Of a stretch of 64,000 bases of DNA, positions 7,075-52,729 are shown piece by piece. The translations under genes and the position numbers were made by a program. The DNA is from Gautieria morchelliformis (taxonomy: Eukaryota; Basidiomycota; Agaricomycetes; Gomphales; Gomphaceae): NCBI GenBank assembly GCA_015179125.1, contig WHVA01000124.1:62001-126000 (forward strand), given 5' to 3'. The notes under the pieces are model-generated. The model worked only from the letters and a program-made list of their open reading frames with translations. It did no database searches and was not told where the DNA came from. How positions within the stretch are numbered: the stretch's first letter is position 1; each line of letters opens with the position of its first letter.

Positions 7075-9445
7075 CCGCCACCTCCATAACACTTCCGTAT
7101 CACCAAGATCGCTTTAGAGGATGGTGCTTGATGAGGGGAAAACAGCATTCCGGACACGGTATGGCTCTTTCGGATGGCTAGTCATGCCTTTCGGCTTAAC
7201 CAATGGTCCCACGGTTTTTCAACGTTTTATGAATCACGTCTTTGGAGATATGCTTGATGTATGCGTCCTCATGTACCTTGACGACATACTCATCTACTCC
7301 GATGACCCGGTCAAACACAGGGAACATGTCTGTGAAGTACGCATCTTCGGAAACACGGTCTCTATGCTAAACCTGACAAATGCGAATGGCACTGAGATTC
7401 CATGGAATTCTCAGGGTATATGCTGTCTACCAATGGCTTTACCATGTCCAAAGACAAAGTCCAGACAATCCGTGATTGGCCCGAACCCCGGAAGGTAAAA
7501 GACATACAGTCCTTCCTCGGCTTCGCCAATTTTTACCGCCGCTTTATCTATAACTATTCCGACATCACGGTCCCCCTAACCTGGCTTACTCATAAAGGCA
7601 CCCCTTGGGCATTTACCGAAGAATGCTGAAAGTCTTTCAATTACCTCAAGGAAGCTTTCACTTTGGCCCCGATTCTGTTGCATTGGGTTCCCGACTGACC
7701 CAGGGTCGTGGAAACCGACGCCTCAGATTATGCCCTCGGCACAATCCTATCATTGTTCAATGAAGAAGGTGTCCTGCACCCGGTCGCTTTCCATTCCTGA
7801 ACATTTCCCGGTGCCAAATTAAATTACAATGTCCATGATAAAGAGCTACTGGCAATCTTTGAAGTGTTTCAACATTGGAGACACTATCTGGAGGGCTCCG
7901 GCTCCCCTATCGACGTTGTCACTGACCACAAAAACTTGGAGTATTTTGTCACCACAAAGTTGCTAACCTGACGACAAGCCCACTGGTCTGAATTCCTCTT
8001 GCAATTTAACCTCATTATTCAGTTCCGTCCTGGAAAGCTTGGTACAAAACCCGACGCTCTAACTAGATGATGGGATGTCTACCTTAAAGAGGGAGGTAAT
8101 GACTACGGCTCAGTCAACCTGCAAAACTTCCAACTGATTTTCATTAATCAACAATTGTTGGAATCCCTCCAGGCAACTTGTCTGCTTGAACCCGTTCTCC
8201 GGGCAGTCATTGTGATGGACTCCGAGAAGCTTCATGCTGACATATTAGCTAATCTGGCATCCGATCCCATAGCTGCTAAGCATCTCAGAGATAGTTCCTA
8301 CCCAAGATGGACACAAACCGAGGACAGCTTCCTCCGCCTTGATGGTCGTATATATGTTCCTGATGCCGACGATCTCCGGCTCCGAGTACTCCAGTACAAA
8401 CATGACCATGTACTCTTGGGACATTTCAGTCAAAACAAGACCTTAGAACTCATCAGATGGGAATACACATGGCCCGCACTTCGGTCTTTCATATTGACTT
8501 TTGCAAGTCCTGCACTACTTGCTTGCATTCAAAGTCACGGCATCATCGGCCTTACGCCTCCCTGCAGCAGCTTCCGATACCTGAGCAACCTTGGAATTCC
8601 ATCTCCATGGATTTCATTGAGCAGTTGCCTGTGTCTTCAAGTTTCACTGCAATCCTTGTACTAGTTTGCCGCTTAACCAAACAGAGCATATTCATCCTGA
8701 CCTACAACATGGTCACATCTGCAGACCTCGCCCACCTGTTCATCTTGCATGCTTTCTTGAAGCACGGTGTCTCTAGCCATGTGACATCCAACCAAGGTTC
8801 AGAATTCATATCGCACTTTTTCTGTTCCCTGGGTAAGGCTCTTGACATGAAACTGCATTTCACCTCAGGATACCATCCCGAAGGCAATGGTCAAACCGAA
8901 CATGTCAAGCAAACTCTGGAACAGTACCTCCGTGTGTATTGCAATTATCAGCAGCACAATTGGTCCAAGTTGCTACCACTTGCCGAGTTTGCATACAACA
9001 ATGCTCCCAGTGCAACTACCGGCATATCACCCTTCTTTGCCAACAAGGGATACAACATGAACCTCATGGTTCACCCCGAATGGGACCGTGCATCCTCCTG
9101 AGCCTGAGACTTTGCAGTTGACCTTGACCAGCTTCATGCTGCCCTGAAAGAGCAAATTAAATCTGCTCAATCCCAGTATCAGGTCTTGGCCGACACACAT
9201 CATGCTCCCACTCCCAAGTTTGTAAAAGCGCAGTTCTTCCGGACAACCCAGCCCTCGAAGAGCTGGCTGAAAAGTACCTCGGCCCCTTTGAGATTATTGG
9301 CCAGGCCCGATCCTGAGCTTACATTCTATGTGTGCCGGATAGCCTTCGGGCAGTCCACCCAGTCTTTCATGTCTCCATGCTCGAACCCACAATCCCGAAT
9401 ACCATTCTGAGCCGGGTTCAGTCTCCGCCACCTCCAGTTGAGATC
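7075..9445 (+). pseudogene. Ty3/gypsy pol (reverse transcriptase, RNase H, integrase), decayed
   Basis: Domains in order: reverse transcriptase at 7120-7560 ([20 protein letters not shown] and the active-site motif YLDDILIYS), RNase H at about 7630-8080 ([27 protein letters not shown]), the integrase zinc-finger region at about 8150-8480, and the integrase core at 8550-9090 (SMDFIEQLP, GYHPEGNGQTEH). It ends at VHPVFHVSMLEP around 9380-9400. At least three frameshifts (near 7350, 8470 and 9100) and five in-frame TGA codons (7627, 7696, 7798, 7969, 8068) inactivate it. Gag and protease are missing, and no chromodomain follows. Immediately downstream lies an antisense gene. The polypurine tract and 3' LTR that fit this element lie at 21.93-22.84 kb, displaced by the 11-kb insertion. 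Confidence 0.92.
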
Positions 9446-9459
9446 GATTCCGCTTATCT

Positions 9460-10086
9460 TCCTTGTCCCCGTCTTCCAAATCCAAACCCGATCCCACTTC
9501 CGCTTTTTCTTCTGTCTCCTTCTCTTTCTCTTTTCCTTTATCCTTTTTCTCCACTCCCTTTTCCCTCTTCACTCCCCAAACCCAAACCTGTACCCAAACC
9601 CCCAGCCAAATCGAACCCACCCCAATCCAAACTCATCCCCGTCCATAAGGATGTGTTCTCGGCCACTGTGGCCCACAGGTGGAGCCGCTTGTTCAGCCTG
9701 GAATTGTGCCGCTCAATCTGCTGCACAAATTCCAAGACTCCCTGGAGCAAGTGGTTGCTCCACTCCAGCTGCTCGTTTTGACGAGACAGCAAGTCCTTCA
9801 CCATCCGGGAGACTTCGGCTCACCCGTCGGGTTTCAAACCCTTTATCCCAGCTCCCAACGGCCCCGCACAGATGTCCACCGTCGGTATGGCTCCCGACGG
9901 CTTGACCGGAGACATTTTGGCCTTCTTTGGCCCTGGCCCCTCGGTCACATCCTCATCTTTCCATTTCCATTTCCTGTCCAGGAAACTACAGCAGACTTTC
10001 TGGTCCACGCACTGCTGGCAGGCGGTTTTCTTCCTGCGCAGACATCAGGTCTGGCGACGCCTGCACGCATCACAAGGCTTGGACTG
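9460..10086 (-). pseudogene. Antisense accessory gene of the gypsy element, 3' part (Cys-cluster and coiled coil)
   Basis: On the minus strand an acceptor (ttttcag) just above 10086 opens an exon beginning SKPCDACRRRQT, then CLRRKKTACQQC and VDQKVCC. The cysteine spacing resembles a Zn(II)2Cys6 cluster. A KKAK basic stretch follows, then a leucine/glutamine-rich helix (MVKDLLSRQNEQLEW, VLEFVQQIERHNSRL) and a lysine/glutamate-rich tail. Two in-frame TGA codons (10045-10047 and 9820-9822) replace probable arginines. The first half of the same gene is at 21,190-21,997, on the far side of the 11-kb insertion, so the insertion is intronic. Position between integrase and 3' LTR and opposite polarity make it an antisense ORF carried by the retrotransposon. 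Function unknown; DNA binding is a guess from the cysteine cluster. Confidence 0.6.
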
Positions 10087-10110
10087 AAAACAAAAAAAAA
10101 ACATAAGTTA

Positions 10111-11372
10111 CAGCGCTTTGCAGTACGTAAGGCGGGTGTGAGGGCAACACTAATGACGAAGCCACAACCAAGATACTCAAGGAGATAAGAGCCGATACTA
10201 GGACAATGACCAACTGTGTAGTGGGTATCCTCAGAGATCAAGCTGAGGAAACGCCACCACACGGGCTACAGTCTTATAGCGCTGGCAAGGCTTACATAAT
10301 AGGGGAGACGGAAACTTGTAGAAGGTTACGGAATGTGACAGAATGTGACATGTGACGGAAAGTTATGGAAACTGATGGAAGGTGACGGGAACTGACGGAA
10401 ACTCATGGAAGGAAATAGAAACTTGTGGAAGGAAACGCGTGAACCCTGACAGTGGGCGCTTGTTTTGCTTCCATTATTCGGCGGCCAAAATTAAAACAGC
10501 TGTAGAATAGCTAGTTCTCCATGGATTCAATCCAAATTTGAAATACAAGGTTATACGAGCTTATATGAGGGCACAGTACCCTAACATTGAGGTAAATCAA
10601 CTGGTAAAAAATTCGCATTTTTGGCCAGCTGCGCCTGGACTAGAATGTCTATTGCAAGCTGAATACATGCCAGAACCAATAACTTGTTGACAGATCATGT
10701 ACTCAGGACATATGTTGAGGGATTAAACTGCATTTAAGCTTTATATATGTCACAGACTAATTATATTCACAAAATAAATGAGTCGGAGCGGCAGGCGCAA
10801 CAGCAGTGAGAGGGAGACTTGATGAGCGATGCACGCATCGCGCTCCCACTCGTCCTGCGCACGCAAGAGAAGGTGCTGCAGTCCCCCTGAGCGCAGAGTG
10901 TCATGGACCCACTAGCAGTGTGGGGCGACATGGACCAGGAGCGTGAGGCGAGCTTGAAAAGGAGCGTGGGGTGACGTGGACCTCCAGGGGCACGGGGCGA
11001 TGTCGAGAAAGGGCGCGGGTGATGTCGAGAAGGAGCGGGGTGATGTGGACCACCAGGCACACGGGGTGATGTGGACCCGCCAGGAGCGCAGAGTGACATG
11101 GACCCACCAGGAGCGTCGACGTGGACCAGGAGCATGGGGACGAGTCAGAACGGCAGGAGCAGTAGCAGCGATGGGGAGACTCAAAGCGAGACACGCGGGA
11201 AGGTTCTGGATGGAGACGCGTTCATCAGGTGAGACGTATATCTAATGAATCAAACTTAACAACATACACGCACAGGCGCAGCATGCGCAGCCGTCGCCAC
11301 ATGCGATGAGGGCAGAGTACGCGCTTCCCACCCCAATCTTCCGCACCTCCTCAGCGACCCAGCCCTCCCCAG
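10111..11372 (+). repeat. Left long inverted repeat of the composite insertion
   Basis: This arm matches the complement of 20263-21177 with scattered substitutions. The match covers the terminal cagcgctttgcag, the block starting gggcgcttgttttgcttcc near 10454, and the GC-rich minisatellite, and ends at ctccccag (11365-11372). The left arm alone has about 315 extra bases at 10138-10452. Confidence 0.85.
10138..10452. repeat. 315-bp insertion unique to the left arm, with a GGAA-rich minisatellite
   Basis: Comparison with the right arm, where aaggtgggcgc is continuous, shows that these bases were added to the left arm or lost from the right. The second half (about 10316-10440) is an imperfect tandem array of units like ggaaactgatggaaggtgac. 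Its ends (tgtgagggcaac and the complement ctgtcagggttc) are only loosely similar, so its class is unknown. Confidence 0.6.
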
Positions 11373-11895
11373 GCACTTCGCCATCCTGCCCTCCGCCACC
11401 CAGCAGCGCACAGCGCAGCCACGGATGCTGCCTATCCAGCCTCGTCTTCCCGACCCAGGCGCTGGCCTCAGGCCTAGCACGGAAGCGCAGAAGCACCAGG
11501 CAAGCCCACGGGAATGGGCGCAGCACACGCGGCTGTCGCCACATGCGATGAGGGCAGAGTACGCCCTTCCCAGCCCAATCATCCAGACCTCCTCGCTGAC
11601 CCAGCCCTCCCAAGGCATGTCGCCATCCTGCCCTCAACCACCCAGCAGCGCACAGCGGAGCGGCAGACGCCGCCTATCAAGCCTCATTGCCAGTCATCCC
11701 AACACAGGCGCAGGCCTCAGGCCTAGCATGGAAGCGCAGAAGTATCAGGTAGGCCCACTCGCGCAGCCACGGCACGCGCGGCCATCGCCACACCCGATGA
11801 GGGCAGAGTATGTGCTTCCCGCCCCAATCCTCCGCACGTCCTCCCCGACCCGGCACTCGCCACGCACATCGCCGTATTACCCTCCGCCATCCAAC
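11278..11895 (+). repeat. About 240-bp tandem repeat, roughly 2.5 copies
   Basis: The block cgccacatgcgatgagggca recurs near 11297, 11540 and (diverged) 11785, each time followed by similar cttccca.cccaatc and gacccagccctcc segments. One unit overlaps the inner end of the inverted repeat; the right arm holds only a single unit. Long frames through it are by-products of the repeat. Confidence 0.8.
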
Positions 11896-12540
11896 TGCGC
11901 TTTGTGCCGGAAGTCGAAGAGGAGGGTGAACAGGGGGTCAAAGAGGGGGTCGAAGAGGAAGTTGACAAACTTGTTGTGGATGGTGTGGAGCTAATAGATG
12001 TGACGGAGGTCATTGGCTGGGTCGTAGAACTAGATGCCGACGTCGAGCTGGAGCAGCAATATGGGATTCAGATAGAGGTCAACATGGTCTATAAAGTGAT
12101 GGTGGTCATCACCTTGACAGAATGGTGACGGGAGCGGGGTGGGATGCTTGGAGAAGGTGAGGGTAGCAGTGGGTTCTGAGCAGAGTTTAGAGACTGGCCT
12201 CGAGTTTGAAACAAGGACCGGGAAACAACTTCCGGCAGCAGGGTCCTTCTGCAAATGTATCACTTTGAGGAAAGAGTATTGACTCAGAAGAACGGTTGAC
12301 ACTGGGTACTCTACTCCATGCAGCCTGGTGTGTGGGGTAGGAACAGCACATGACGCAGGAGGTCCCAACCAGCGAGATGGAACTGCGGAGGGTGCTGATG
12401 CTTGATGAGAATAGCATCGTCATACAAAACATTCCAAGGCATGGGAGCGATGAGATACACACCGAGTTCGCTCTAACTCCGCAGAATAGACATAAACAAG
12501 GGGAACGCCGTAATTGTGACATTGCTTCCATTCTCATAGG
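11896..12540. other. Interval upstream of the SAM-like gene
   Basis: No coding region is recognised. The DNA is purine-rich (gaggaggg, gtcgaagagg) near 11,920-11,980 and then ordinary. It presumably contains the promoter of the plus-strand gene at 12,541. Confidence 0.4.
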
Positions 12541-14498
12541 ATGACCATGGGTAGCAAGAAAAATCAGAAGAAGAAAGTTAAAGTAGACAGTAAACCTACC
12601 AGGGTCAAACGCTCATCAGCAGATTTGGCTGACTCGGAGGGTCAAGACAACGGAGTGCAATATATCGCTCCTATTGAACAAGGTAAGCTTTCTCTTATAA
12701 CCATCTCACTTCACATTAAATCATGGGATCTAGACATACCTGAAGGCAAGCATGGTATTGGAACCTCTATCCGTCGATCAACTCACATGCGACCGATTTC
12801 CACAAAATTGAAAATGGCCGCAATCATCGAAGAAGAAGCTGCATTCCCTGCAGATGACTCGGACCAAATCCCACATGTTCTAGTTGATTTGTCACCAATC
12901 AAAAGCAAGCCAGGCCCAGCTGTTGTGGAAGACAATTCTGCTGACTTCATGCCCGACCAGGTTCAGTCTGGAAGCGAATCCGATAGTATACCATCCGAGT
13001 CCAGTATAGCTACAAATCCGACGAGTAAACCTGTGATAGCGGGAAAAAAGGACGCCGCAAAGAGTGAGTTTCAAACACATATGTAATTGCGTGTTCTGAC
13101 ACAACAAAGGTATCACATTTCTCGTACCAGATGGCACTGACGCTGACGAGACTCGCACCCGGATTAATATAATGTCCCATACTTCGTTCTATATGCTCAT
13201 TAACACCCTTCATGATGCAATCGGCTGTTCCGGTGTCAAATCGAAGCCGAAGTTGAAGTACAAGCTTACACGTGTTACCAAGGCAATGCTCATGCAGCTC
13301 CAGTCTGTGGAAGACTGGGAGGGCTTGAAGGAGGAGATAGAAACTGTGCAAGGAAAGAAAAAAAATCAAGCCTCTGTTGCTGTCGAGATTATTGTTCCTG
13401 ACGATGTAAGTTCTTCTAGATTTTCATCGTCAGTTCTCTAACTATTGGTAGAGTACATGGAGTCACTCCGTCACACATTGGGTAAAGGGAAGAACGCCAA
13501 CAAGAAGGGCACCGGCAAGGGACATGGCGGCCACACACAGAAAGAAATAAAAATTACCAACTTGAATGCATCAGATGATGAAAGATCGGTCGTTTCTGAT
13601 GATGACCACAGTCGAATGTCAGCCAAAGAACGAGGTACCCTACAGGCATTGAAGGAAACTCTCACACCATGTGACCTGAACACCTGCCGCAATGAGCGCT
13701 GTAAGGTTGATAAGCAAGGTATGCACTGAGACATTAGTTGGAACCAGCTGAGAGCGTGGGCTGAGGCATTGGTAAGTTACCGTATATTCTATAGAGCGAC
13801 AACATCTGATTCATTTTTAGGCTGCTGGTACATATGGGGTTACATACAAAGTACCACCCAACAGCAAGCATTTTGAGAAGTTTCACAGCAACACGGCCAA
13901 TGCTGTGGCTAATGCAGGTACCGCCGAACCTACGAGAATAAGGGCAGGTCACGCTGTTCTTGGTAGTGACGGACCCTATCCAGTCATGGGGCAGATGGCA
14001 GGTCACACGGCGATTGGTAACAATGGGTCCTATCCACTTATGGGCCAGCCGCAGACACCACACCCTGCATTTTACCACCCATATGCACCACAATACGGCT
14101 ACCACAACCCAATGCAGATGATGGAATTAGCTATGGCGGTTTTGAAAAAAGGCCAGGGCCGCACAAGGTCACCTAGTCCAGCTACTGGCCCTTCAAGCAA
14201 TGGCCCAGAAATCACGGCAGCTCACGCTTTCCCGACTATTTCCGACTTCATCGATATGCTTACCATCCAGCCAGATGCGCAAGATCGTGATCTTGAGTTA
14301 TTCAAGACGCAGTTCCAAAGCGAGCATGTACACTACATCGATGAGCTGCGGGGTCTCACAGCTGAGGAGCTCAAAGACCAATTTGGCTTTGCATGGGGAG
14401 ATGCATGGTTCATTCACAAAGCGGTGGAGAAAGCCATTCACAGGGTAGACAAGGCGAGGAAAAACATGTGGCAGGCTAAGCGTGCTAGACATGAGTAG
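12541..14498 (+). pseudogene. Agaricomycete-type hypothetical protein with SAM-like C-terminus, one in-frame TGA
   Basis: Five exons keep one frame: 12541-12682, 12734-13063, 13110-13405, 13454-13771 and 13821-14498 (588 codons). The N-terminus is lysine-rich (KKNQKKKVK, a possible nuclear signal), followed by an acidic/serine linker, a middle domain (TFLVPDGTDADETR, YKLTRVTKAML), a cysteine segment (CDLNTCRNERC) leading into ISWNQLRAWAEALAAGTYGV, and a C-terminal helical domain (ISDFIDMLTI, LTAEELKDQFGFAWGDAWF) that reads like a SAM fold. I recall many-copy families of this general layout in Agaricomycetes; their function is unknown. The TGA at 13727-13729, between MH and DISW, is the only break I see. 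An alternative ATG at 12547 has a better context (accATGG). It lies inside the 11-kb composite insertion. Confidence 0.7.
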
Positions 14499-14814
14499 CT
14501 TCACTGGGCTTCGCTCCAGATTACAGTCAACTGATATCTCAATGATATTCCAAAAATAATGGGTAGGTCATCCAACTGTTATCCAAATAACTCCATTGCA
14601 AGATTTGACTGCAAATATAATCAACATGTCATCTAAATGCCATCCCAGATGTTACCCAAATATCGCTAGCTGCTAAGAAACCTTTACTGCGTGGGCGTCC
14701 CCGGCTGCCACCTTGCAAATATAGTAGCATAAAACATACAGAATAAAATCACCTAATAATGCCTTGAGAACAATAAGTGCTACACTAACCTCGGCTTACA
14801 CTCCCCATGCCCTT

Positions 14815-15440
14815 TCTTTCCGCATCCACTGTGAGTAATCGCACAAATGGCGCACCTCATCCTCACGGCCCTGGCTGACGAGCCAGCGGGGGGACTCGGG
14901 CACGAACCAGATGAGGCAGACCTGGAAGATGGAGGGGAGGGTCTGGAGGGCGGAGAGGATGCGCCAGGACCACAAGTTCTTGATGAAGAAGGTGCCGAAG
15001 GTCTATGCCGGCGTTGGTGAGTGTGGCAGAAGGAGCGGGGCAGACGACTCATGGTCCACGGGGCACTGAATGATGGAGAAGTCAGAGGGGTGGGAAGAAT
15101 GGAGGAGATGCAATGCACACGATAGAGCCGGAGTACCTTGAATAGCCCCGTGTCAGGCAGACGAATCACATCACAGAGGTTACACACCAAAGGGAGTTAT
15201 AAGATGACATCAGCTGGGCACGGTGTGTTGGGTATGCAATCTCGGTGACAACTGATTATAGATGGCTTATCAGAAGAGCTTATCAGCTGGAGGTGGCGCA
15301 GAAGGGACGCACGCAATGGGGCCACGTTGGGAGGAGTGGGGTGTGGAAGAGGGACGGACCGTGCACTGATAAACATGCGGAGGTTTTGGGAGGCGGTCTG
15401 GATGATGGCGCCCATGACCACTGGGGAGATGTGAGAGGGG
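14815..15440 (-). pseudogene. Fragment of an MFS sugar transporter gene
   Basis: On the minus strand an exon at about 15,440-15,370 follows a ccccag acceptor and reads VMGAIIQTASQNLRMFISAR. A second at about 14,995-14,850 reads GTFFIKNLWSWRILSALQ, then FQVCLIWFVPESPRWLVSQG. This is the loop between transmembrane helices 6 and 7 (PESPRWL signature) of fungal hexose/lactose-type permeases. The sequence between is intron-like or degenerate, and the frame is lost just downstream. N- and C-terminal parts are absent. The surviving splice-site-like context suggests capture from genomic DNA rather than retroposition. It lies inside the 11-kb composite insertion. Confidence 0.8.
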
Positions 15441-15499
15441 AAACGAAATAGAGGAGGACGAACTGATGACAGCACCGACAAATATGGCTTTATACCCAT

Positions 15500-18030
15500 A
15501 CACCCACGCATCCTGAGCCTTCCTCTAATTAAAGCCTAATGCCACTGCACAGGCACCAAACTCGGCACCCCCACACCAACCCTCAGACCCATGGCAGGAC
15601 CGACCCCGGGACTCCCAGGACCGTGAAAGCTCGCGACGGGGGCGAGCGTGTTCACACTGTGGTTTGGGTTGGTGTGTACATGGGAGTGGGGAGGCGGGAC
15701 CCCGCAGCCGGGTAGGCGTGCGCGTGCGCCTGCTGCGTGGGCATGGGCATGGGAAGAGGGGGCTGGCACATGCGAGTGTGATAGGGGATACACGTCGGGC
15801 ACAGGTCAGGTCCCGGGGGGCGTGCAGGTTCACAAAGATGCCTGTATTTGCCCTCGCAGGGGCGGCGGGGTTTGGGGGGGTCTGGGAGGGGGGCGGGCGG
15901 GTAAGGGCAAGGGCAAGGCTGCGGTGGTGGTGGTGTGCGTGGGTAAATATAAGGGAAGGCTTGCTGGTGTAGGAGGTGGGGGGCGTGTGTGGCGCTGCGG
16001 GTGCAACTGCTGCGGCTGTTGCTGTTGGGGCGAAGGCGTGTGTGTGCGGGGATGTGCGGTGTGGCAGTGAGGGTGACACGCGCACATGCTCTCCACCGCG
16101 CACGCGGCACGCGCCCCCAGGCGAGAGGCGCGGCGTCGCCAGCGGCGCATCGACGTCAGCCGCGCTCTCCAGCCCCAGCCCCAGCCCCCTGTGCCACTTC
16201 GTGGGGTCTCGTCCCTGGGCCTCGTGGCGCCAATCGCGCACACGTGCTCCCCACTGACATGAAAGTCACGCTCGGCTGCGCCGCTGAACTCCCATGCCAG
16301 CGCCGTCTTGAAGAACCTGCCATCTAGGGGCGTCGGTGTCGTTGCGAGCGTGCCCGCCTTTGAGCCTGCACCGGCCCTGTCTCCACCCCCAAAAACGCAT
16401 GTGCCTGCACTCCTCACCACACGAACGTCCTGCGTTCGCGCTCCAGTTGCCTATTCTCTTTTGGATTAAGGTATCAATTAGTGCCTTTAACAAGTAGAAT
16501 CTATTGCTCAGTGATTGAGGCCACTGCGTTCGCCCCTCTTCTATGTGCTGACTAAGCCTTTCGAGGCGCGTCCAACACTGATGAATGAGAGTCACGTGAC
16601 CGTGTCGACAGAAGAACGGCGTCGATCCAAGGGATAGTCAAATCAAAAGTGTTTGCTTTTAAGGTAGTATAGAGTAAACAGTGATAATAGACTCTTGACG
16701 AAGATTTGGAATAAACTATCAAGATCTGAGCTCTGTAGCTATCAAACAAGACTACAGTAATTTCAGGAGGCAGAATAATCGATTCTGGATGATTTCGTTC
16801 ATACATTTGTACTAGCTATTTATACTATATTGATAGTAACTACTAGTGTTCAAGATATTGGATGGATGGGTCGAAAAACTACTTTGTAACTAAGGGGTGA
16901 CTAATTTATAGTCATAAAGTCATGGGGTGATGGGGATGGTGTTAGGATTGTCTGGGCCTTGGAATAGAGATCTGTACCTAGTATACAAAGCCCCTGTCCA
17001 CATGATGTTAAGATAGTAATCAGTCAGACGTGTCATGGTATTAGAATAGAAAATGGATCTGAGTCTACCCTGCCCAGCATATATGCTGGGCTTGGAGATG
17101 GGGCCGCTGTCTCTGTGCCCTTTCTGTTGGGCAGCTGATTGAATATGTATACTGCAGGTGACTTTCTCAGGTTGCTCCACAGCATTCCATACTCCTGTGC
17201 AGTCTATTGTTTTCTGCGGCGTTTGGTGCCCGCACCCCTCGGTGCCTATGGCCTGGCGCCTGTCGACGTCATGGCCGATGCCATCACTCGATAGGCGCGC
17301 CGTCCCTGATCGACCGCACGTGGTCGACGCTCGAACTCCTGTATATTACCCGATCTATGAGTAATATAGCATGTCATAAATTCGTGTGATCGTTGTCTGC
17401 GCCGACGTCTGTCATAAATATAATTTCTGTTTCTTTTTGTTTTTTGTTTTGTTTTTCTTTCTTTCTTTATTAGTTTCTTTTTATATATAAACAATTTGAA
17501 ATGAAAATAATTGCGTTTATCACAACATTCTCCCCAAGCTCCCTCTGGGGACATGTCTCGCATGGACAGTGTGCGTCCTCCGCAGGGAAGCCCCCCGCGT
17601 CGGGGGGCATGTGGGTCGTGGGGGGAAGGAGCTGCCGTCCAGGGGACAGGTTAGGAAGGGCTTCATGAGCTGGTGGCCCGAGGGTGGGGTGGGAACGGCC
17701 GGCCGCGGGGTGGGAGGGCGGTCTGGGGCATTAGGGGCGGGAGGGTGGAGTCTAGGGAGCAAGCAGTGAATGGTGTTCGGTACGAGACAAGGGACTGGGC
17801 AATGGGACGTACCATCAGCTGGGTGGGGTTGTGTCTCCAGGGTCTGTACCTGTGTCTGGGTCTGGGTCATGCTGGCGGATGGATGGATGGCCAGACGTGG
17901 TGGAGAGGGCAGCGAAAGCGCCATGCAGGATAGATGGGCTGTTTAGATATATGGAAAGGGAAGTGGGAGCGATGAGGCCATTGAAGAGAAGATGCGGCTT
18001 CACGTGACTGTGGCTTGCGACTTCTGGATG
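15500..18030. other. GC-rich then AT-rich spacer inside the composite insertion
   Basis: From about 15,540 to 16,430 the DNA is very GC-rich with GT/CA runs, giving long but low-complexity frames on both strands (proline/histidine/arginine-rich). From 16,600 to 17,500 it is AT-rich with a T-rich run near 17,430-17,480. From 17,520 to 17,930 it is again GC-rich. I recognise no protein family and call no gene. Confidence 0.4.
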
Positions 18031-18040
18031 AAAGTTGGAT

Positions 18041-18112
18041 ATTATTTGAAAACTGATACAAAAGTCGCCAGGCGATTTTTTGGTCTAAAACGCGGTGCTT
18101 GTCTAGTCAATG
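18041..18112 (+). repeat. Palindrome-containing repeat shared with 52.73 kb
   Basis: The segment contains aaaagtcgccaggcgatttt, an inverted repeat around the cca centre, flanked by a diverged 80-bp block. The same block, in opposite orientation and with several substitutions, is at 52,730-52,815. Here it lies 85 bp beyond the stop codon of the DD34E transposase, so it could be the transposon's terminal region. Confidence 0.6.
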
Positions 18113-18196
18113 TCAAAAGTAGTAATGTGGTGTTCATGTCAAAGGTAGCTAATAATGATCAGCACCCAATATTTCAAGCGATACAATGGCACGAGT

Positions 18197-19406
18197 CTAC
18201 AAATAACCTGAATGCTTCATCCACCCAAGGGCATGTTCTGGCATAATTTCATCTAATGCGTCATACAAAAACATGAGCAGTAACTCTTTCTGCTTACTTG
18301 CAACAGCCTGGTGAAACTGGTCACCATGCCGGTGGAGGTATGACTTGATGAAAGAAAATGCTTCTTCGATGGGGTTGAGATCGGGTGAATAAGGAGGCAA
18401 ATACATGATTTTTACACCTCTGAAAAATAATATCAGTTGTGGATATAGGAATGAATGCAGAGGTAACTTACCGAGCGGCACACAACTCCCTTACCCCTGG
18501 CACATGATGGATTCTGCAGTTATCGAGTACCAGAACGCTTCGAGGTGCCGGATATGGATTCATGTGTTCTAGGAGCCCATCAAGGTAATCTATAAATGAA
18601 TTACCGTCATAAGAACCAATCTTGATATCGCTGGAGATAATGCCATCCTGCGACAAGGCCGGCAGTAGTGAATATCTACACGGTTCATAAGAAGAGTATT
18701 ACATGTATAAGATAGATCATGTACTTACCGTTCACCCCTTCCAAACTTTGCCTTAACGCGGGCTCTACGCTCCTTGTAGCTCCACCCCATGAGTCGATAT
18801 GTTGTTTGAAGGTCGATAGCGCTTTCATCAGTGTACACAAGTCGTTCGGGTGACTCGGCACCTATAGCCCATTGAAAAGCTGTCCTAGAGGTTTCACAAT
18901 GCTCTGCAGCAGCCTTGGAAAGCTTTCAGAGAGAGACATACTAGCTACTGGCTGAGTTATGTAAAAGTAAAAACATACCTTTTTGCGTCGCAGCCCAAGT
19001 CGTTGCAACAATCTCCAGACAGTTGATATACTAACAGTGATGCCATGCTGTACTTCCAGTTCCTCCGCAAGCTCGTCAAGATATAAGTATGGAGCATGCT
19101 CAAGCAGCACAATTAGAAACTGCTGGCATTTGTATCAGACAGAATGAGACACACCAATAGATAACTTACCTCCTCTTGAGCTGCAGTCATCAGTGGTGCA
19201 CATGAGAGCTTCTGCGGAGCGTTGATTACATCGCCGACATCGCGCCAGAGTGCGATGATTCGTTGGACTACACGCAACGACATATCTAAGTCAATAGCAA
19301 TGTCAGTAGTATTCTTGCCTAGTTTGAATTTCTGGTAGATAACCCGTTCCCTCAGCTGTTTACAGTAGTGCTGACGAACAGGACGTAGGTTGGGTGGTCG
19401 TGGCAT
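18197..19406 (-). CDS. IS630/Tc1-type DD34E transposase, five exons, apparently intact
   Basis: Exons (minus strand) are 19406-19170, 19122-18979, 18922-18729, 18675-18472 and 18419-18197; all junctions are GT-AG and phases agree, giving 333 residues. The N-terminus has a helix-turn-helix (YQKFKLGKNTTDIAIDLDMS, VVQRIIALW) and a second one (SISTVWRLLQRLGLRRKK). The catalytic core has the first D in VYTDESAIDLQ, the second in VLVLDNCRIHH, and the glutamate in PPYSPDLNPIEEAF. Thirty-four residues separate the last two, which defines DD34E. No stop or frameshift was found, in contrast with most elements here. Such enzymes cut and paste into TA, and the 11-kb block around it is flanked by TA, so it may have moved that block. 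Its own short terminal repeats were not both found. Confidence 0.9.
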
Positions 19407-19502
19407 GAGGTGCCAAACATGTGTTGAAACTCCGAGAACTCATGTTTGTCGCACTCACCGTCCGTGGTCTGTATACGAGTGGAAAGTCTCACACCAAAAT
19501 AT

Positions 19503-19900
19503 CTTTGGACGAGTCGAGGGAAGTCGAACAGCAAATTCTTGACCAATCCCATCTTAGAGGCATTCGGTAACGCTAAAACCCCTCGCAACGATAACTCCCC
19601 CAGATTCGGAACGTATATTCAGTCAGGTATGCTCTATCAGGGTGGACTACGCATCTACTTATCAAGCTATAGATTCTCTTTGATGGGAAACAAGAGATTG
19701 TTGGCGGGTGCATACGCACTTATCTGCTAGAGTGCTCTCGGCTCATCTTCCAGCCCGAGATTGAGCGTAACTACCACATATTTTATCAACTCTGCGCAGG
19801 TGCTCCCCTCAAGGAATGGAAAGACTTGGGTCTAGAAACCGACATTGTGAATTTTTTCTACCTGAAGCAAGCCGGTCCTAGTTCGACGCCAATTCCCAAC
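19503..19900 (+). pseudogene. Fragment of a class V myosin motor domain
   Basis: Translation in two frames gives EVEQQI, then [20 protein letters not shown] and FGTYIQ. After an intron-like or degenerate stretch comes [36 protein letters not shown] and DLGLETDI...FYLKQAG.SSTPI. This is the part of the myosin head around switch I and the following helices; the [13 protein letters not shown] wording fits fungal class V myosins better than myosin II. A frameshift lies near 19,540 and the gene ends are missing. It abuts GC-rich minisatellite DNA at 19,905. It is host-gene DNA inside the composite insertion, not a functional gene. Confidence 0.85.
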
Positions 19901-20262
19901 TTCAATGCTGCTGCTCCTGCCACTCCGACTCGTCCCGCACTCTTGGTCCACGTTGCCTTGCGCTCCTCCTGGTCCACATCGCCTCACGCTCCTGGTGGGT
20001 CCACATCACCTGTGGCTCCCCCGCACCGAGCTCGAGCTCCCGCAGCTTCACCACGCATCCCCGCGACACATCCGCCCCAGGGCCAACGTACCAGCCAGCT
20101 CACGATGCTCCCACGCCGTGAGCCCATGGGTGGTGACTTGGGCCTGCATCATGGGGTGGGCACATGAGGATATGATGTCAATGGTGATCTGTGTTGGGAG
20201 GAGCAACACTCTGCAACGAGGTCACATAACATCCATCGAAACCGTCTTGCAGATCACACAGC

Positions 20263-21177
20263 CTGGGGAGGGCTGGGTCACTGAGGAGGTGCGGAAGATT
20301 GGGGTGGGAAGCGCATACTCTGCCCTCATTGCATGTGGCGATGGCTGCGCGTGCTGCGCCTGTGCGTGTATGTTGTTAAGTTTGATTCATTAGATATACG
20401 TCTCACCTGATGAACGCGTCTCCATCCAGAACCTTCCCGCGTGTCTCGCTTTGAGTCTCCCCATCGCTGCTACTGCTCCTGCCGTTCCGACTCATCCCCA
20501 CGCTCCTGGTCCACATCGCCCCACGCTCCTGGTGGGTCCATGTCACTCTGCGCTCCTGGCGGGTCCGCATCGCCCCGCACACCTGGTGGTCCACATCACC
20601 CCGCTCCTTCTCAACATCACCCGTGCCCTTTCTCGACATCACCCCGTGCCCCTGGTGGTCCACGTCACCCCGTGCTCCTTTTCAAGCTCGCCTTGCGCTC
20701 CTGGTCCACGTCGCCCCACGCTGCTAGTTGGTCCATGACACTCTGCGCTCAAGGGGACTGCAGCACCTTCTCTCGCGTGCGCAGGATGAGTGGGAGCGCA
20801 ATGCGTGCATCGCTCATCAAGTCTCCCTCTCGCTGCTGTTGCACCTGCCGCTCTGACTCATTTATTTGGTGAATATAATTAGTCTGTGACATATATAAAG
20901 CTTAAATGCAGTTTAATCCCTCAAGTTATTGGTTCTGGCATGTATTCAGCTTGCAATAGACATTCTAGTCCAGGCGCAGCTGGCCAAAAATGCAGATTTT
21001 TTACCAGTTGATTTACATCAATGTTAGGGTACTGTGCCCTCATATAAGCTCATATAACCTTGTATTTCAAATTTGGATTGAATCCATGGAGAACTAGCTA
21101 TTCTACAGCTGTTTTAATTTTGGCCGCCGAATAATGGAAGCAAAACAAGCGCCCACCTTACGTACTGCAAAGCGCTG
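20263..21177 (-). repeat. Right long inverted repeat of the composite insertion
   Basis: Inverted counterpart of 10111-11372. It includes a GC-rich minisatellite at 20,480-20,760 whose imperfect unit is about 27 bp (cctggtggtccacatcaccc), an internal stretch with tatataaagcttaaatgcag, and the terminal 25 bp ending cgctg at 21177. A short piece of the same minisatellite also occurs at 19,930-20,010, outside this arm. Confidence 0.85.
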
Positions 21178-21189
21178 TAAACCAAGCCT

Positions 21190-21997
21190 ACCCAACCCGA
21201 GGACTCACCTCTTCCTCCAACTCTTCATCTGACTCCTCGGTCATTTTTCTCTTTTTCGACCCCAAGGTTTTCGGCTTTGCCTTAGCCGCTTTCCATTCAG
21301 CCACATGTTTCACTGCCAGGAACTGAGCCTGTGGGGTTGCTGAATCCACAATGAATGGTTCGGGCGATGGGATGTGGAAATTTTGATCCACATCGGCTTG
21401 TCGGATTTTTTCAGCTTCTAATAAAGCGAGAAGTCACTTTGGCTCACGTTCGAATGCTGGCCCCTTTGCCTTCCGAGCCTCATCGGCTTTTGTCTTCAAA
21501 GCCCACTTTTCCGCCTCCCACGGCTCCTCGGCTTTCCTAGCCTCTTCGGCTTCCCTAGCCTCTTCGGCTTTCTTTGCCTCTTCAGCTATTCACACGGCTT
21601 CGGCCTGTGCTTCCCGTTCCTTCCATTCCACCTCGGCTTTTTCTTCATCCTCCCACCGTTTCTTCTCCGCAGCTTCCTTGCGCTCCTGCACAAGTCACCA
21701 CTTTTCTTGCAGCGCCTTCATCCACTCTGCAGCTTCGCACTCTGCCTGCCCAAGCTCCACGTCGAGCTCCTCAATCTCGTTGATGCTCATTTCAGGGACA
21801 TCTGGCATGATCCACTGGATTTTTTTGATGATGATGGGAGAAGACAAGAAACAGAACGTGAAACAAAGCTTACTTAACTTCCCCAACCCGGTGATCTCCA
21901 GGATCTCGCTTATGGCCTCATGGGTTCGGCCATAAGGGGGAGGTACTGTTACGATCCGTTCCCGAATCTGGACTGAAGCCTCGGCTTCAGCTCTCAT
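21190..21997 (-). pseudogene. Antisense accessory gene of the gypsy element, 5' part
   Basis: The minus strand encodes an N-terminal exon (MRAEAEASVQIRERIVTV, with its start inside the LTR), then MPDVPEMSINEIEELDVELG, a long charged coiled-coil rich in Glu/Ala/Lys, and a final segment KKRKMTEESDEELEE before a gtgagt donor near 21,207. Individual frames are interrupted by stops and by probable introns. The matching acceptor and Cys-cluster exon are at 10,086, so the two halves are one gene opened by the 11-kb insertion. The domain order (coiled coil, then Cys cluster, then helix) is visible; a function is not. Confidence 0.55.
21931..21946 (+). other. Polypurine tract before the 3' LTR
   Basis: The purine-rich cataagggggaggtac directly precedes the TGTTACG start of the LTR. 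This is where plus-strand primer is expected in a Ty3/gypsy element, and it indicates that the LTR at 21,947 is a 3' LTR of an element lying to its left. Confidence 0.6.
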
Positions 21998-22840
21998 TCG
22001 GGAACCTTGGGTTATTCTCAGCTTTCCTTCAGGTTTCCCTTCACACTTCCTATCACCCCTGATTCCCTTTTCTAGTTAGTTCCCGGGGGCGGGTTAGCAC
22101 AGGTGGAACTAACCCAAACCAAGCGCCTATTTGGCGCGAAGGAAGAGCCTCTGGTTCGAACCACCCCCCTCCCCATTTGTAGCAGTAATTACTACAATGT
22201 TTCGCCCCACCGATAGGTGTCGATAAGTGTTAGGATTACGAGGCTCCTGGACTTCCATCTGGCATATAAGACCTACTGAAACTGACCGGTACTGATATGT
22301 ATCTGAGGTGATTAGGCATTGTAAACAAAACAGGAAGTATCCTATGTTGGTGCCAGCATATCTCTGGCTTACTTTGGTAACTACGATACCCTAGCATGTA
22401 AAACACTTTGATTACTCTATTCCGTGTTCCGGATAGAGACTGCCTATATAGGGCCCGGCCCCAAGGTGGCAGTATAATAAACGGAATTTAAAATAAAATA
22501 AAATAAAATAAAAAAGTTAGTTCCCCATTTGCTTGACCCTTGTTCCCCTGACCATTGATCTGATCATGTTCTCTTCGCGACCCTGCATGCTACTTTACTA
22601 TATAGACCTCCAGTCCATGTACAGTAGCTCCTCAGTTCAGATATCGAATTAGCTTATCATACTTGAGACCCTCTGCTTGACATCAAAATCCATATCTCAG
22701 CTTATAGCCGAGACCACTCCGGAAATTAGGGTGGAACATCAAGTGGGTGCAACCCAAGAGATTGAAGCCAAGCGCTCTGACCTGAGACCCGAGTTCAGCT
22801 TTGGTAAAGCCGAACTACAGTACAAAACACAACCTTAACA
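21947..22840 (+). repeat. 3' LTR of the gypsy element, interrupted by a SINE
   Basis: The LTR starts tgttacgatccgttcccg and ends ccttaaca. Without the inserted SINE and one target copy it is about 453 bp, close to the related LTR at 24,774-25,231 (458 bp) and homologous to the truncated inverted copy at 62,866-63,245. A TATA-like tactatatagacc lies near 22,600. Confidence 0.85.
22085..22514 (+). mobile_element. tRNA-derived SINE, 430 bp, with 11-bp target duplication
   Basis: The insert is bounded by direct repeats agttagttccc at 22074-22084 and 22515-22525. It begins with a tRNA-like head: gggggcggg, A box tagcacaggtgg (22095-22106) and B box ggttcgaacc (22153-22162), then ccaccccc that can pair with the 5' end. 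An unrelated body of about 300 bp follows, and it ends in a simple tail of (aaaat) repeats from about 22,489. Internal RNA polymerase III boxes, A-rich tail and target duplication together define a SINE. No coding capacity. Confidence 0.88.
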
Positions 22841-23329
22841 CTCTTTCAGAAAGGATGACATCATCCTTGGCTTGCCATGACTCTGAGATCACAACCTGGA
22901 GATCAATTGGCAATCCTGCAAGCTATCTATGAGTTGCTGTATGGATCAGTGCCACACCTGCTGTACCAAGGAACAGGAAGAGCAGAAGGAATGAAGGAAA
23001 ACCAAGCAGAAGGTCCAGGCATGTTGCTCAGGCACACACCCAGTGATCGTCGATGAGGGGAAGGCACAGATGGTGAGTCTGAGACCAACCTCTCAGGAAC
23101 TCCAGAACCCAAACAAGCACACCTCATGACCCTACTGCAGGAGGGAGACCACTTGCTATATGTGGACCTACCCTCAAGCATGAGCTTGAAGCTATTTGAG
23201 TGACAACCACAACATCCCAGTGCCTCGCAGAGGCCTCCCAGAAGTACTCCAAGGCCAAGACCAAGATCCTGGAGTACCTGCAGGGATTTGAAAATGTCTT
23301 CAACAAAGAGTCCTTCCACACCCTGTCGG
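22841..23329 (+). pseudogene. Gypsy remnant (protease to reverse transcriptase junction)
   Basis: At about 23,200-23,329 the frame reads TTTTSQCLAEASQKYSKAK, then ILEYLQGFENVFNKESFHTL, the conserved spacer just upstream of reverse transcriptase in gypsy elements of this type (usual form ...EYLQDFAEVFDKESF). Upstream sequence from 22,841 is degenerate. The fragment is cut at 23,330 by an inserted LTR. Confidence 0.7.
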
Positions 23330-26813: not shown

Positions 26814-29800
26814 CTAGGGTGTGTCTATGCCTGTATGGATGGAGGCTTGTGTCAGTGTGTTTGGATGCTCCTGACCAAGTACCCTCTTCCTTTCCTCCAT
26901 GACTTGAACCTCCAGCTCTTGAGCATCCTTCCACCGGCCCAGACTCTGATAGGTTGCAGCAAGATTGGCCATGGTGGTCAGTGTGTCAGGATGCTCCTGT
27001 CCAAGGACCCTCTTCCTTGCCTCCATGACTGGAACCTCCAGCTCTTCAGCATCCTTCCACTGGCCCAGACTCCGATAGGTTTCAGCAAGGCTGCCCATGG
27101 CACTCAGTGTGTTGGGATGCTCCTCACCAAGGACCCTCGTGCTTGCCTCCATGACTTGAACCTCCAGCTCTTCAGCATCCTTCCACTGGCCCAGACTCTG
27201 ATAGGTTGCAGCAAGGCTGGCCATGGCAGCCAGTGTGTCGGGATGCTCCTCACCAAGGACCCTCTTGCTTGCCTCCATGACTTGGACCTCCAGCTCTTCA
27301 GCATCCTTCCACCGGGCCAGACTCTGATAGGTTTCAGCAAGGCTGCCCATGGCACTCAGTGTGTTGGGATGCTCCTCACCAAGGACCCTTGTGCTTGCCT
27401 CCATGACTTGAACCTCCAGCTCTTCAGCATCCTTCCACTGGCCCAGACTCCGATAGGTTGCAGCAAGGCTTCCAATGGCAGACAGTGTGTCGGGATGCTC
27501 CTCACCAAGGACCCTCTTGCTTGCCTCCATGACTTGGACCTCCAGTTCTTCAGCATCCTTCCACTGGCCCAGACTCTGATAGGTTGTAGCAAGGCTGCCC
27601 ATGGCAGCCAGTGTGATGGGATGCTCCTCACCAAGGACCCTCTTGCTTGGCTCTATGACTTGAACCTCCAGCTCTTCAGCATCCTTCCACTGGCCCAGTC
27701 TTCGATATGTTGCAGCAAGGTTGCCCATAGCAATCAGTGTGTTAGGATGCTCCTCACCAAGGACCCTCTTGCTTGCCTCCATGACTTGAACCTCCAGCTC
27801 TTCAGCATCCTTCCACCGGCCCAGACTACGATAGGTTTCAGCAAGGCTGCCAATGGCAGCCAGTGTGTTGGGATGCTCCTCACCAAGGACCCTCTCCCTT
27901 GCCTCCATGACTTGAACCTCCAGCTCTTCAGCATCCTTCCACTGGCCCAGCATTTGATAGGTTGCAGCAAGACTGCCCATGGCAAACAGTGTGTCAGGAT
28001 GCTCCTCACCATGGACCCTCTTCCTTGCCTCCAGGACTTGAACCCCCAGCTCTTCAGCATCCTTCCACTGGCCCAGCCTTCGATATGTTGCAGCAAGGTT
28101 GCCCATGGCGATCAGTGTGTCAGGATGCTCCTCACCAAGGACCCTCTTCCTTGCCTCCATGACTGGAACCTCCAGCTCTTCAGCATCCTTCCACTGGCCC
28201 AGACTACAATAGGTTGCAGCAAGGTTTCCCATGGCGATCAATGTGTCGGGATGCTCCTTACCAAAGACCCTCTTGCTTGCCTCCAGGACTTGAACCTCTA
28301 TCTCTTCAGCATCCTTCCACTGGCCCAGACTCTGATAGGCCTTAGCCAGGCTACTCATGGCAGCCAGTGTGTAAGGATGCTCCTCACCAAGGACCCTCTT
28401 CCTTGCCTCCAGGACTTGAACCCCCAGCTCTTCAGCATCCTTCCACTGGCCCAGCCTTCGATATGTTGCAGCAAGGTTGCCCATGGCGATCAGTGTGTCA
28501 GGATGCTCCTCACCAAGGACCCTCTTCCTTGCCTCCATGACTGGAACCTCCAGCTCTTCAGCATCCTTCCACTGGCCCAGACTGCAATAGGTTGCAGCAA
28601 GGTTTCCCATGGCGATCAATGTGTCAGGATGCTCCTTACCAAAGACCCTCTTGCTTGCCTCCAGGACTTGAACCTCTATCTCTTTAGCATCCTTCCACCA
28701 GCCCAAACTCCGATAGGTTTTAGCAAGGCTACTCATGGCAGCCAGTGTGGCAGGATGCTCCTCACCAAGAACCCTCTTGCTTGCCCCCATGACTTGAACC
28801 TGCAGCTCTTCAGCATCCTTCCACCGGCCCAGCTTTCGATAGGTTTCAGCAAGGTAGCCCATAGCATCCAGTGCGTCAGGATGCTCCTCACCAAGGCCAC
28901 TCTTCCTTGCCTTCATGACTTGAACCTCCAGCTCTTCAGAATCCTTCCATTGGCCTAGCCTCTGATAGGTTATAGCAAGGTTGGCTATGGCATTCAGTGT
29001 GCCGGGATGCTCCTCACCAAGGACCCTCTTGCTTGCCTCCATGACTTGAACCTCCAGCTCTTCAGCATCCTTCCACTTGCCCAGACTACGATATATTTCA
29101 GCAAGGCTGCCCATGGCAGTCAGTGTCTCAGGATGCTCCTTTCCAAGGTCCATTTTCCTCCCCTCTATGACCTTCATATACAGCTCTTCAGCATCCATCC
29201 ATCGTCCTGCTTCATCAAACACTTGTGCAAATTTATTTGCCATGTTTCCATCTGCACCTTTTATATGTAGCTCATTAATATGAGACACAAGCGTTCTCCT
29301 AAAGGCATAGTCCTCTGTACTTTTTTCAAGTGGGATAGAAAGTGCTAGTATCTGCATCATGCTCCCTTGGCTATACTCCTGCGCTGCCACCTCCAGTCTT
29401 TCTCTAGCCCAAGCATGCACTAGTGGATGAAGGAAAAATGTGTTGTCTCCCTCATCACTGTTAATCAATGAGTAAGAAGTTAATTCATTAATGACCTCCT
29501 GAAATTGGAAGTCACTCCAGCTACCATCTGCAGTTTGAAAGTTATGCAGAAACTGTTTTGCATCATCAAATTGCCTATCTGGATGTATGAGAGCTGCCCT
29601 CTGAAATATGCTCTTGGAAATACCCCTATAATGCAGAAATGCACACAGGTGTAGCAGGCTTGCTGCTTTGGGACCTAGCCTTTTAAAGCTGATTTCCCAC
29701 GTCGCATATACTGCCCACTGATAATTATCTATCATCTGCACAGAGTGCTTGCTCATCAGCTGAACCCGATCCTTCTGGAGAATATTCAGGTATTCATTCA

Positions 29801-52419: not shown

Positions 52420-52729
52420 GAGATGGATGGTCTACAGCCAGATAACAGGCTGAGTTGTGAGCGATTTAGGTTTTTTTTTTTTTTCAGAAAGAGCGAGTGA
52501 AATTGGCCGGATGTTCTGGTGGCCCCGCTGGAAGTTCTGGGGAGGTGATGGCTGTTCAAAGTTCTCGCGCTTGACCCCCAAGGAATTGGCTCTCCGCAAC
52601 CGATGATTATCACCCGTCAAACCCGTCTTCCTTCCGGCCGCAGCCATCTATGCGCCCAGCGCTTCCTAACCCGAACCTTCCAAAACCCCCGGACAAGGGA
52701 CTTGACTGCTCGAAGTGAACGCAACACCG

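Follow-up and report, generated by a model that had tools for sequence, protein, structure and literature searches.

The ~11-kb block at 10111-21177 of the window (the whole 64,000-nucleotide stretch analysed) is very probably a single cut-and-paste transposon of IS630/Tc1 type, belonging to a gene-capturing family and carrying a nested element of the CACTA/EnSpm type. The block is a single mobile unit, hereafter also referred to as C143, inserted at the TA of a TTAA site in a retroelement gene, where it interrupts a short intron. The earlier note had read it as one TA-flanked unit with terminal inverted repeats (TIRs) and long inverted arms, and this was confirmed by the following outer features.

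10109..10110, no strand: left TA target duplication (target TTAA), from end reads and empty-site comparison
10111..10136, plus strand: left TIR of 26 bp, CAGCGCTTTGCAGTACGTAAGGCGGG
10137..10451, no strand: dispersed repeat of 315 bp in the left arm, TGTGAGGG...CCCTGACA, found in at least 34 other scored places
10452..11374, plus strand: left long inverted arm (arms ~0.9 kb)
20261..21156, minus strand: right long inverted arm
21152..21177, minus strand: right TIR, the complement of the left with one mismatch
21178..21179, no strand: right TA target duplication, from end reads and empty-site comparison

A genome search with the 24-base terminus, a check that had been proposed earlier, returned 134 matches at ≤3 mismatches compared to 0 for a reversed-pattern control; two matches (C506 and C1004) did not start with TA. 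Among loci fetched without a TA-led pattern, 21/21 distinct ends adjoined TA and 20/21 adjoined TTA, and TTA was also observed at 29/29 ends in 29 further loci, which were fetched by a pattern itself starting with TA. Empty-site alignment, likewise proposed, showed the joined flanks to be contiguous across the junction in 38/38 other scored copies of the interrupted retroelement. The two paralogous copies read across the insertion site (C813 and C125) indicate an empty site of TTAA converted to T-TA-[element]-TA-A. Both copies retain the short intron form, with the 3' splice-site AG at the insertion position present in C813 and absent in C125. The host intron without the unit would measure 56 nt (10084-10110 plus 21180-21208), in agreement with the earlier placement of the block in an intron of an interrupted gene. 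A PIF/Harbinger reading with a 3-bp TTA/TAA duplication was ruled out because left TTA and right TAA do not form a duplication, the empty site being TTAA.

Five complete units were read at both ends (C143, C382, C208, C90 and C649), spanning 3.0-14.4 kb. C649 lies within perfectly inverted flanks and may be an artefact. An assembly error joining repeats into the window unit is hardly credible: the draft is repeat-rich, with 1113 contigs, and includes the inverted flanks of C649, but C382 and C208 display the same part order, TIR and TA ends at other loci, and the joined flanks match sequence in 38 other places.

Sequence matching the arms occurs at 19 loci of the genome. Alignment of the two arms showed 828/865 identical bases in the first 900 columns and 164/338 thereafter; the 315-bp dispersed repeat that interrupts the left arm was overlooked in the earlier reading. 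Short elements with the same TIRs (14 distinct ones compared, 369-378 bp) exist in the genome and could suggest composite transposition, with each arm a short non-autonomous element and the block carried between them. This is extremely improbable, however, since 12 of the 14 align to the arm only in their 26-bp ends (the other two extend to 75 and 152 columns) and the inner arm ends lack a TIR at ≤6 mismatches. No further TIR-like site was detected within 9001-23000 at that threshold, and the arms are therefore not two short elements; had they been so, the earlier note would have rejected the single unit.

Without its inserts, the unit is a two-gene IS630/Tc1-type element with convergent genes.

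18197..19406, minus strand: DD34E transposase gene, 5 exons, 332 codons, open (our own splice model)
12541..14498, plus strand: ORF2, the second gene, 5 exons, 587 codons, with an in-frame stop at 13727-13729 in the window copy (our own splice model)

The full-length DD34E transposase claimed from the first reading was upheld by its open frame and by a profile match to DDE_3 (6.8e-28), the triad and its 34-residue spacing being read by eye from the translation. At the N-terminus, HTH_33 passes its cut-off (1.3e-7) and HTH_Tnp_Tc3_2 fails its own (0.00015). Among four transposase copies that were compared, three carry damage; the window copy is open. IS630-Tc1-mariner elements are usually compact, single-gene and 1-2 kb in length, a trait that is not defining. 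The outer unit shares with them the TA duplication, TIRs, a DDE_3/DD34E transposase and an N-terminal helix-turn-helix, and departs from the compact form in the size range of its family and its second gene; at ~11 kb the window copy is indeed unusually large, as had been remarked.

No Pfam family was identified for spliced ORF2, and its exon-3 stretch gave two matches (E 0.02 and 0.09), both under cut-off. Structure predictions for two ORF2 pieces were poor (mean pLDDT 48 and 68), and a fold search with the better model (pLDDT 68) returned nothing at or below E 0.001. An ORF2 intron split at 13719 was considered and rejected, as alignment shows a single continuous exon with a copy-specific stop.

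Raw dN/dS values (ORF2 0.29-0.43; transposase 0.33-0.71) were set aside in view of the high frequency of CpG transitions. Nonsynonymous changes were instead compared to those expected at matched contexts using 5000 simulations, in eight tests without correction. With the single divergent copy C498 set against three other copies (316 codons at most), ORF2 displayed 43 nonsynonymous changes versus 54.4 expected (6/5000 simulations as low, uncorrected); the corresponding transposase result was weaker (26 versus 31.8; 174/5000, uncorrected). Terminal branches were near neutral for C143 (ORF2 26 versus 26.1 expected; transposase 14 versus 15.1), low for C208 (15 versus 19.6; 3 versus 6.3) and mixed for C382, with ORF2 low (14 versus 17.7) and the transposase high (12 versus 9.5). 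C143 and C208 introns differ at 4/194 sites, less than nonsynonymous sites (dN 0.031). Purifying selection, seen against one divergent copy, appears to have acted on ORF2 in active lineages; any present activity of the family is presumptive. It is conceivable, though we would put it forward only tentatively, that the family represents a two-gene IS630/Tc1 clade, probably in a basidiomycete judging by the types of element and gene, in which an accessory protein (ORF2; DUF6698-like in a sister family) aids the transposase and the long arms serve as a copying device, so that host DNA acquired on one side is transferred to the opposite arm before it spreads.

The earlier note had reported pieces of a sugar transporter and a class V myosin in the block and suggested that a single unit captured them. 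Both pieces are real, the transporter piece being short, but they have different owners because the transporter piece lies in a nested second transposon.

19473..19911, plus strand: captured class V myosin gene piece, 439 bp, intron included
14499..14501, no strand: CTT, 3-bp target duplication left of the nested element
14502..18097, no strand: nested non-autonomous CACTA/EnSpm-type element, 3596 bp, CACTGGG...CGCGGTG
14847..14990, minus strand: short sugar transporter fragment in the nested element (Sugar_tr 3.3e-10)
18098..18100, no strand: CTT, 3-bp target duplication right of the nested element

The myosin piece, separated from the transposase start codon by 66 bp, matched myosin Va in the PDB at 4e-16. 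Host locus C294 is 92.1% identical to it over 441 columns, intron included, and encodes class V myosin upstream of the piece (4.9e-29; best stretch stopping before the piece) as well as through and past it (1.6e-48). Judged from sequence, the piece is cargo captured by the outer IS630/Tc1-type element, presumably in the direction from host to transposon, and C294 is likely its donor. No transposon boundary or duplication proper to the piece was observed by eye at its two junctions.

A second set of host pieces was observed within the same ends. The C208 arms (3172 bp each, 99.9% alike) both hold two pieces of a single host locus, C486 (96% and 84%), which the donor has 4.9 kb apart but which are joined in C208; this cargo is also present in C90 and C560. 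For arms this alike, an assembly error is possible in principle. C90 is a single-sided relative. These matches point to a capture of host DNA that recurs in the family.

Plain nested accumulation, in which an ordinary transposon was struck by unrelated insertions and the outer element captured nothing, had been raised as the alternative. It accounts for part of the block, as two insertions are clearly nested: the 315-bp repeat, and also the CACTA-type insert with its transporter piece, which has a duplication of its own. As an account of the whole it is improbable: in host gene C294 the myosin sequence runs on without a break into what flanks it on either side, the piece lies beside the transposase in divergent family members, and C208, C90 and C560 carry the second set of pieces. 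Separate target duplications for each cargo piece, the other proposed ground for rejecting a single capturing unit, were thus found around the transporter-bearing insert and not at the myosin junctions.

CAC...GTG ends with a matching 3-bp duplication were observed in 5/5 copies of the nested element read (C143, C208, C382, C206 and C338). The insert occupies the identical site, flanked by CTT/CTT, in the complete outer units C143, C208 and C382 at different loci, and the composite therefore moved as a unit: the CACTA-type insert is mobilised as part of the outer element. Capture of both gene pieces by a single Tc1/IS630 element would fit their position inside one TIR pair but is very unlikely, since the transporter piece is confined to an insert that also occurs independently at other loci and is missing in C498. 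Six-frame translation of the nested element and of the 2.6-kb copy C206 gave no EnSpm transposase; larger copies of the nested family, C209 (6.3 kb) and C263 (7.5 kb), also occur. The donor of the transporter piece was not found; the best other genome match was 46% at the protein level, and the transporter stretch at query positions 175-720 had no DNA match in scored places outside C143. Helitrons, which are rolling-circle elements, are not known to have TIRs or a target duplication, and membership is contradicted by the TIRs and duplications of the outer and nested units; a Helitron reading of the 14.5-18.1-kb insert, based on a hairpin near its right end, was ruled out by the CAC...GTG ends and 3-bp duplications of the five copies.

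For the gene-capturing transposon that we favour, the host DNA would have entered in its genomic form, complete with introns. We infer that uptake proceeded by copying at breaks in post-excision repair, the template switching to host loci. The long arms may then overwrite each other, which would place cargo on both. The CACTA/EnSpm-type element, here with a sugar-transporter piece, landed between the two gene ends before the composite moved. The capture junctions show little microhomology, so no particular repair route is singled out. To our knowledge, arm-to-arm copying as a mode of capture has not been described in the IS630/Tc1 superfamily. The proposed route is directly testable using the near-identical arms with two-sided cargo, the single-sided C90 and the identified donor loci.

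Tc1/mariner-type elements are textbook small, simple transposons that serve as gene-delivery tools. A natural family whose units reach 11-14 kb, with an apparently selected second gene and repeated intron-bearing uptake would demonstrate cargo carriage and gene shuffling in this superfamily. Transduplication itself is already known from hAT elements and Helitrons in fungi and from Pack-Mariners in rice. The open-licence literature matches listed included no large gene-capturing Tc1/IS630 family in fungi, a search for mariner/Tc1 gene capture by direct name yielded the rice paper alone, and none was found for DUF6698; each of these is weak evidence of absence.

In the portions of the cited papers available, the fungal systems each share part of this picture. 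TIR_1, a Tc1-mariner element of the basidiomycete Pleurotus ostreatus, also has a DDE_3 transposase, but is 1.6 kb, and those portions mention no second gene or cargo (PMC4905642). Helitrons of P. ostreatus are likewise DNA transposons that capture genes in a basidiomycete (PMC4289320). Fungal transduplication is also described in the Dothideomycetes, where hAT elements bearing histone H3, ~9.5 kb long in P. fijiensis, have an 8-bp duplication and the H3 sequence is presented as a captured transcript (PMC6710886); the myosin piece in the window, by contrast, has kept an intron. Fungal EnSpm/CACTA elements end in CAC..GTG and make a 3-bp duplication (PMC12730594), as the nested element does, although no transposase was detected in the latter or in C206. 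Turmoil-1 of C. elegans also bears a transposase and encloses fragments of host coding sequence, one of them intron-containing, in long inverted repeats; its transposase is of Harbinger type and the element is 5 kb with 760-bp repeats (PMC2572040). The window family, by contrast, is of IS630/Tc1 type, inserts at TA in TTAA and has several copies with different cargo. The rice Pack-Mariners (Pack-TYPE) are non-autonomous, one family having a 280-bp captured portion, and in the text available resemble the window family in their TA-flanked Mariner TIRs around copied host coding DNA, sometimes from several loci (PMC8903248). Host coding DNA between TIRs is thus common to both, but the window copy is not transposase-free: units here reach 11-14 kb, with an open transposase and ORF2, and C208 carries its cargo in long arms.

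The 11-kb insertion is bounded by terminal inverted repeats (TIRs) and carries two convergent genes, a DD34E transposase gene and a second gene referred to as ORF2. Its features, with the interrupted host retroelement gene, are as follows (window coordinates).

10111-21177: the unit, bounded by 26-bp TIRs with one mismatch, TA on either side
10137-10451: repeat of 315 bp within the left arm, flanked by GCGGG and GTGGG; its ends are TGTGAGGG...CCCTGACA
10452-11374 and 20261-21156: inverted arms
12541-14498, plus strand: ORF2, five exons in our own splice model
18197-19406, minus strand: transposase gene, 332 open codons when spliced by our own model
8406-10110 and 21180-22075: halves of the spliced antisense gene of the retroelement, outside the unit

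The joined flanks of the unit were compared with the genome (122 Mb, 1113 contigs; window at G000:C143:62001-126000), and the best 40 of 126 candidates were scored. Two matches were the locus itself, and all 38 others (at least 38 other places, 74-83% identity) ran contiguously across the junction, which bears out the earlier note's proposal of one TA-flanked unit. The empty site, read at two of the 38 places, is TTAA, and the unit is placed as T-TA-[unit]-TA-A. The two unit ends were the sole TIR-like sites in window 9001-23000 at up to 6 mismatches; the inner ends of the arms thus carry no TIR, which speaks against two independent short elements. Further copies of the terminus, which that note had suggested seeking, were found at 134 genome matches (up to 3 mismatches) versus 0 for the reversed control. 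TA adjoins 21/21 distinct ends and TTA 20/21 at loci not fetched by a TA-led pattern; TTA also adjoins 29/29 further ends at loci fetched with a pattern itself starting with TA. Two matches in the genome list at up to 3 mismatches, on contigs C506 and C1004, have no TA at the start.

The insertion site is an intron of the retroelement's antisense gene. Without the unit this intron would measure 56 nt, with GT at 21207-21208 and AG at 10084-10085 on the minus strand; of two paralogs read, one (C813) keeps the AG and the other (C125) lacks it. Because the joined flanks are contiguous at the 38 other scored places, the antisense gene seems to be a stable part of the retroelement family. The intron was read across in two of those places. 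The 315-bp repeat has at least 34 other matching places (best 40 of 867 candidates scored).

Arm matches (at least 84%) were found at 19 loci in the genome. Both ends were read in five units, named here by contig: C143 (the window copy, 11.07 kb), C382 (10.99 kb), C208 (14.40 kb), C90 (8.48 kb) and C649 (3.02 kb); for C560 and C498, both ends are known from coordinates alone. ORF2 and transposase of the window copy are shared with C382 and C208 at 94-96%. Its arms are shared by C382 at 91-96% and by C208 over just the outer 296 bp (98-99%), and C90 has only the ends in common. In addition, 14 distinct short elements of 369-378 bp carry the unit's TIRs. The outer flanks of the 3.0-kb member (C649:3600-6900) are perfect inverted copies over the 25 bases shown, reflecting either insertion into a palindrome or an assembly fold-back.

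The transposase gave a DDE_3 match (6.8e-28) with DD34E spacing. Its catalytic glutamate is altered in C208, the C382 gene holds stops, and that of C498 holds stops and an insertion. Spliced ORF2 had no Pfam match at E 0.1; the window copy and C208 have one in-frame stop each. Amino-acid changes were compared with 5000 simulations preserving trinucleotide context. Between C498 and the other three copies, 43 changes were observed in ORF2 against 54.4 expected (6/5000 as low) and 26 in the transposase against 31.8 expected (174/5000 as low). From this deficit in one divergent copy, ORF2 appears to be functional in active lineages. The C143 terminal branch is near neutral (ORF2 26 versus 26.1 expected, transposase 14 versus 15.1), so the window copy has decayed about freely. 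The C208 branch is low in both genes (ORF2 215/5000, transposase 42/5000), and the C382 branch is low for ORF2 (216/5000) and high for the transposase (12 versus 9.5 expected). CpG transitions are frequent on the terminal branches of both genes (e.g. 22/40 changes in C143 ORF2), as expected if the copies were methylated.

Match coordinates put ORF2 next to the transposase in seven instances spread over six contigs (C498, C1015, C793, C168 twice, C992 and C862), C498 alone having been read. In the window copy the two genes are separated by a nested CACTA/EnSpm-type insert, 14502-18097, which starts CACTGGG, ends CGCGGTG and has CTT on both flanks. C208 and C382 hold this same insert at the same point (CACCGCG...CGCGGTG, CTT/CTT), and its ends are confirmed by independent copies on C206 (ATA/ATA) and C338 (AAC/AAC). 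Because three complete outer units hold the insert at the identical point, these copies show that outer unit and insert were mobilised as one composite. The sugar-transporter piece (Sugar_tr 3.3e-10) lies inside the insert and has no match in the C382 or C208 inserts by genome DNA comparison. Of the two cargo pieces that the earlier note had placed in one unit, myosin therefore lies directly in the outer unit, and the transporter belongs to the CTT-flanked nested insert. Elsewhere in the window, an open stretch at 33320-34567 (minus strand) matches Transposase_21 (tnp2, CACTA-type; 1e-9). Other window genes include a patatin-like piece (2.5e-5, below cut-off) followed by a TPR array of 18 TPR_10 stretches (26814-31208, minus strand), which we take to resemble fungal NLR-like immune receptors, and an ordinary host HPC2/ubinuclein gene with HUN and UBN_AB domains (50866-52431, minus strand).

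The myosin piece, separated by 66 bp from the start codon of the transposase, matches the host class V myosin locus on C294 at 92.1% over 441 columns (window 19473-19911), with an intron within the match. On C294, the sequence preceding the piece encodes class V myosin (myosin Vc, 4.9e-29), as does the stretch that runs through and past it (myosin Va, 1.6e-48); the protein of the piece itself matches myosin Va at 4e-16. The same piece occurs in divergent family members (C382, C545, C498, C704 and others). The C208 arms (3172 bp, 99.9% alike) carry different cargo, from the donor locus C486: each joins one C486 piece (96%) to a second (84%) lying 4.9 kb away in the donor, and a third piece adjoins the myosin piece in a fusion. 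By Pfam, the first belongs to a WD40 gene, its best PDB matches being the WD40 proteins Tako8 and RBBP4 (~1e-16); it is presumably GRWD1/Rrb1. The same C486 cargo occurs at one place each in C90, whose arms, in a copy read whole, are just 312 bp, and in C560. Cargo and donor differ by 4% and the C208 arms by 0.1%, which suggests that copying between arms came after capture.

Such units most likely grow when excision by the transposase opens a gap and repair restores the element by copying, at times switching to host DNA; the long arms would allow one side to be overwritten by the other. Since the ends would remain recognised, the enlarged unit could move. The junctions have little microhomology.

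A sister family was found as 11 matches of ~1.2 kb, 65-66% identical to the transposase region, plus partial matches; the TIR that terminates its copy on C271, CACCTGTTTGCAGTACG, is related to that of the unit. The sister transposase has a convergent neighbour, a DUF6698-like gene (two exon frames matching at 9.7e-5 and 5.1e-4, each just below cut-off). In 5/11 copies (C271, C425, C164, C667 and C400; 99-100% identity), a 640-bp query from this gene (positions 1-640 of the C271 stretch; best 40 of 44 candidates scored) ends 21-44 bp away from the match to the transposase. Just its final ~90 bp is retained in three (C722, C437 and C960), and C456, C182 and C833 have no match to it among the matches listed. 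DUF6698 was not mentioned in the open-licence papers searched. Given this convergent gene, a two-gene layout is common to both families, with differing partners.

On the basis of its TA, TIRs, DDE_3 match and DD34E spacing, the unit is assigned to the IS630-Tc1-mariner superfamily, although its size, second gene and arms all differ from the usual form. Among the literature matches listed from a limited, open-licence collection, none showed a large fungal Tc1/IS630 family that captures genes. The unit works in the manner of Pack-Mariner elements (PMC8903248), Turmoil-1 (PMC2572040) and fungal hAT-H3 elements (PMC6710886), yet it is distinct from all three.
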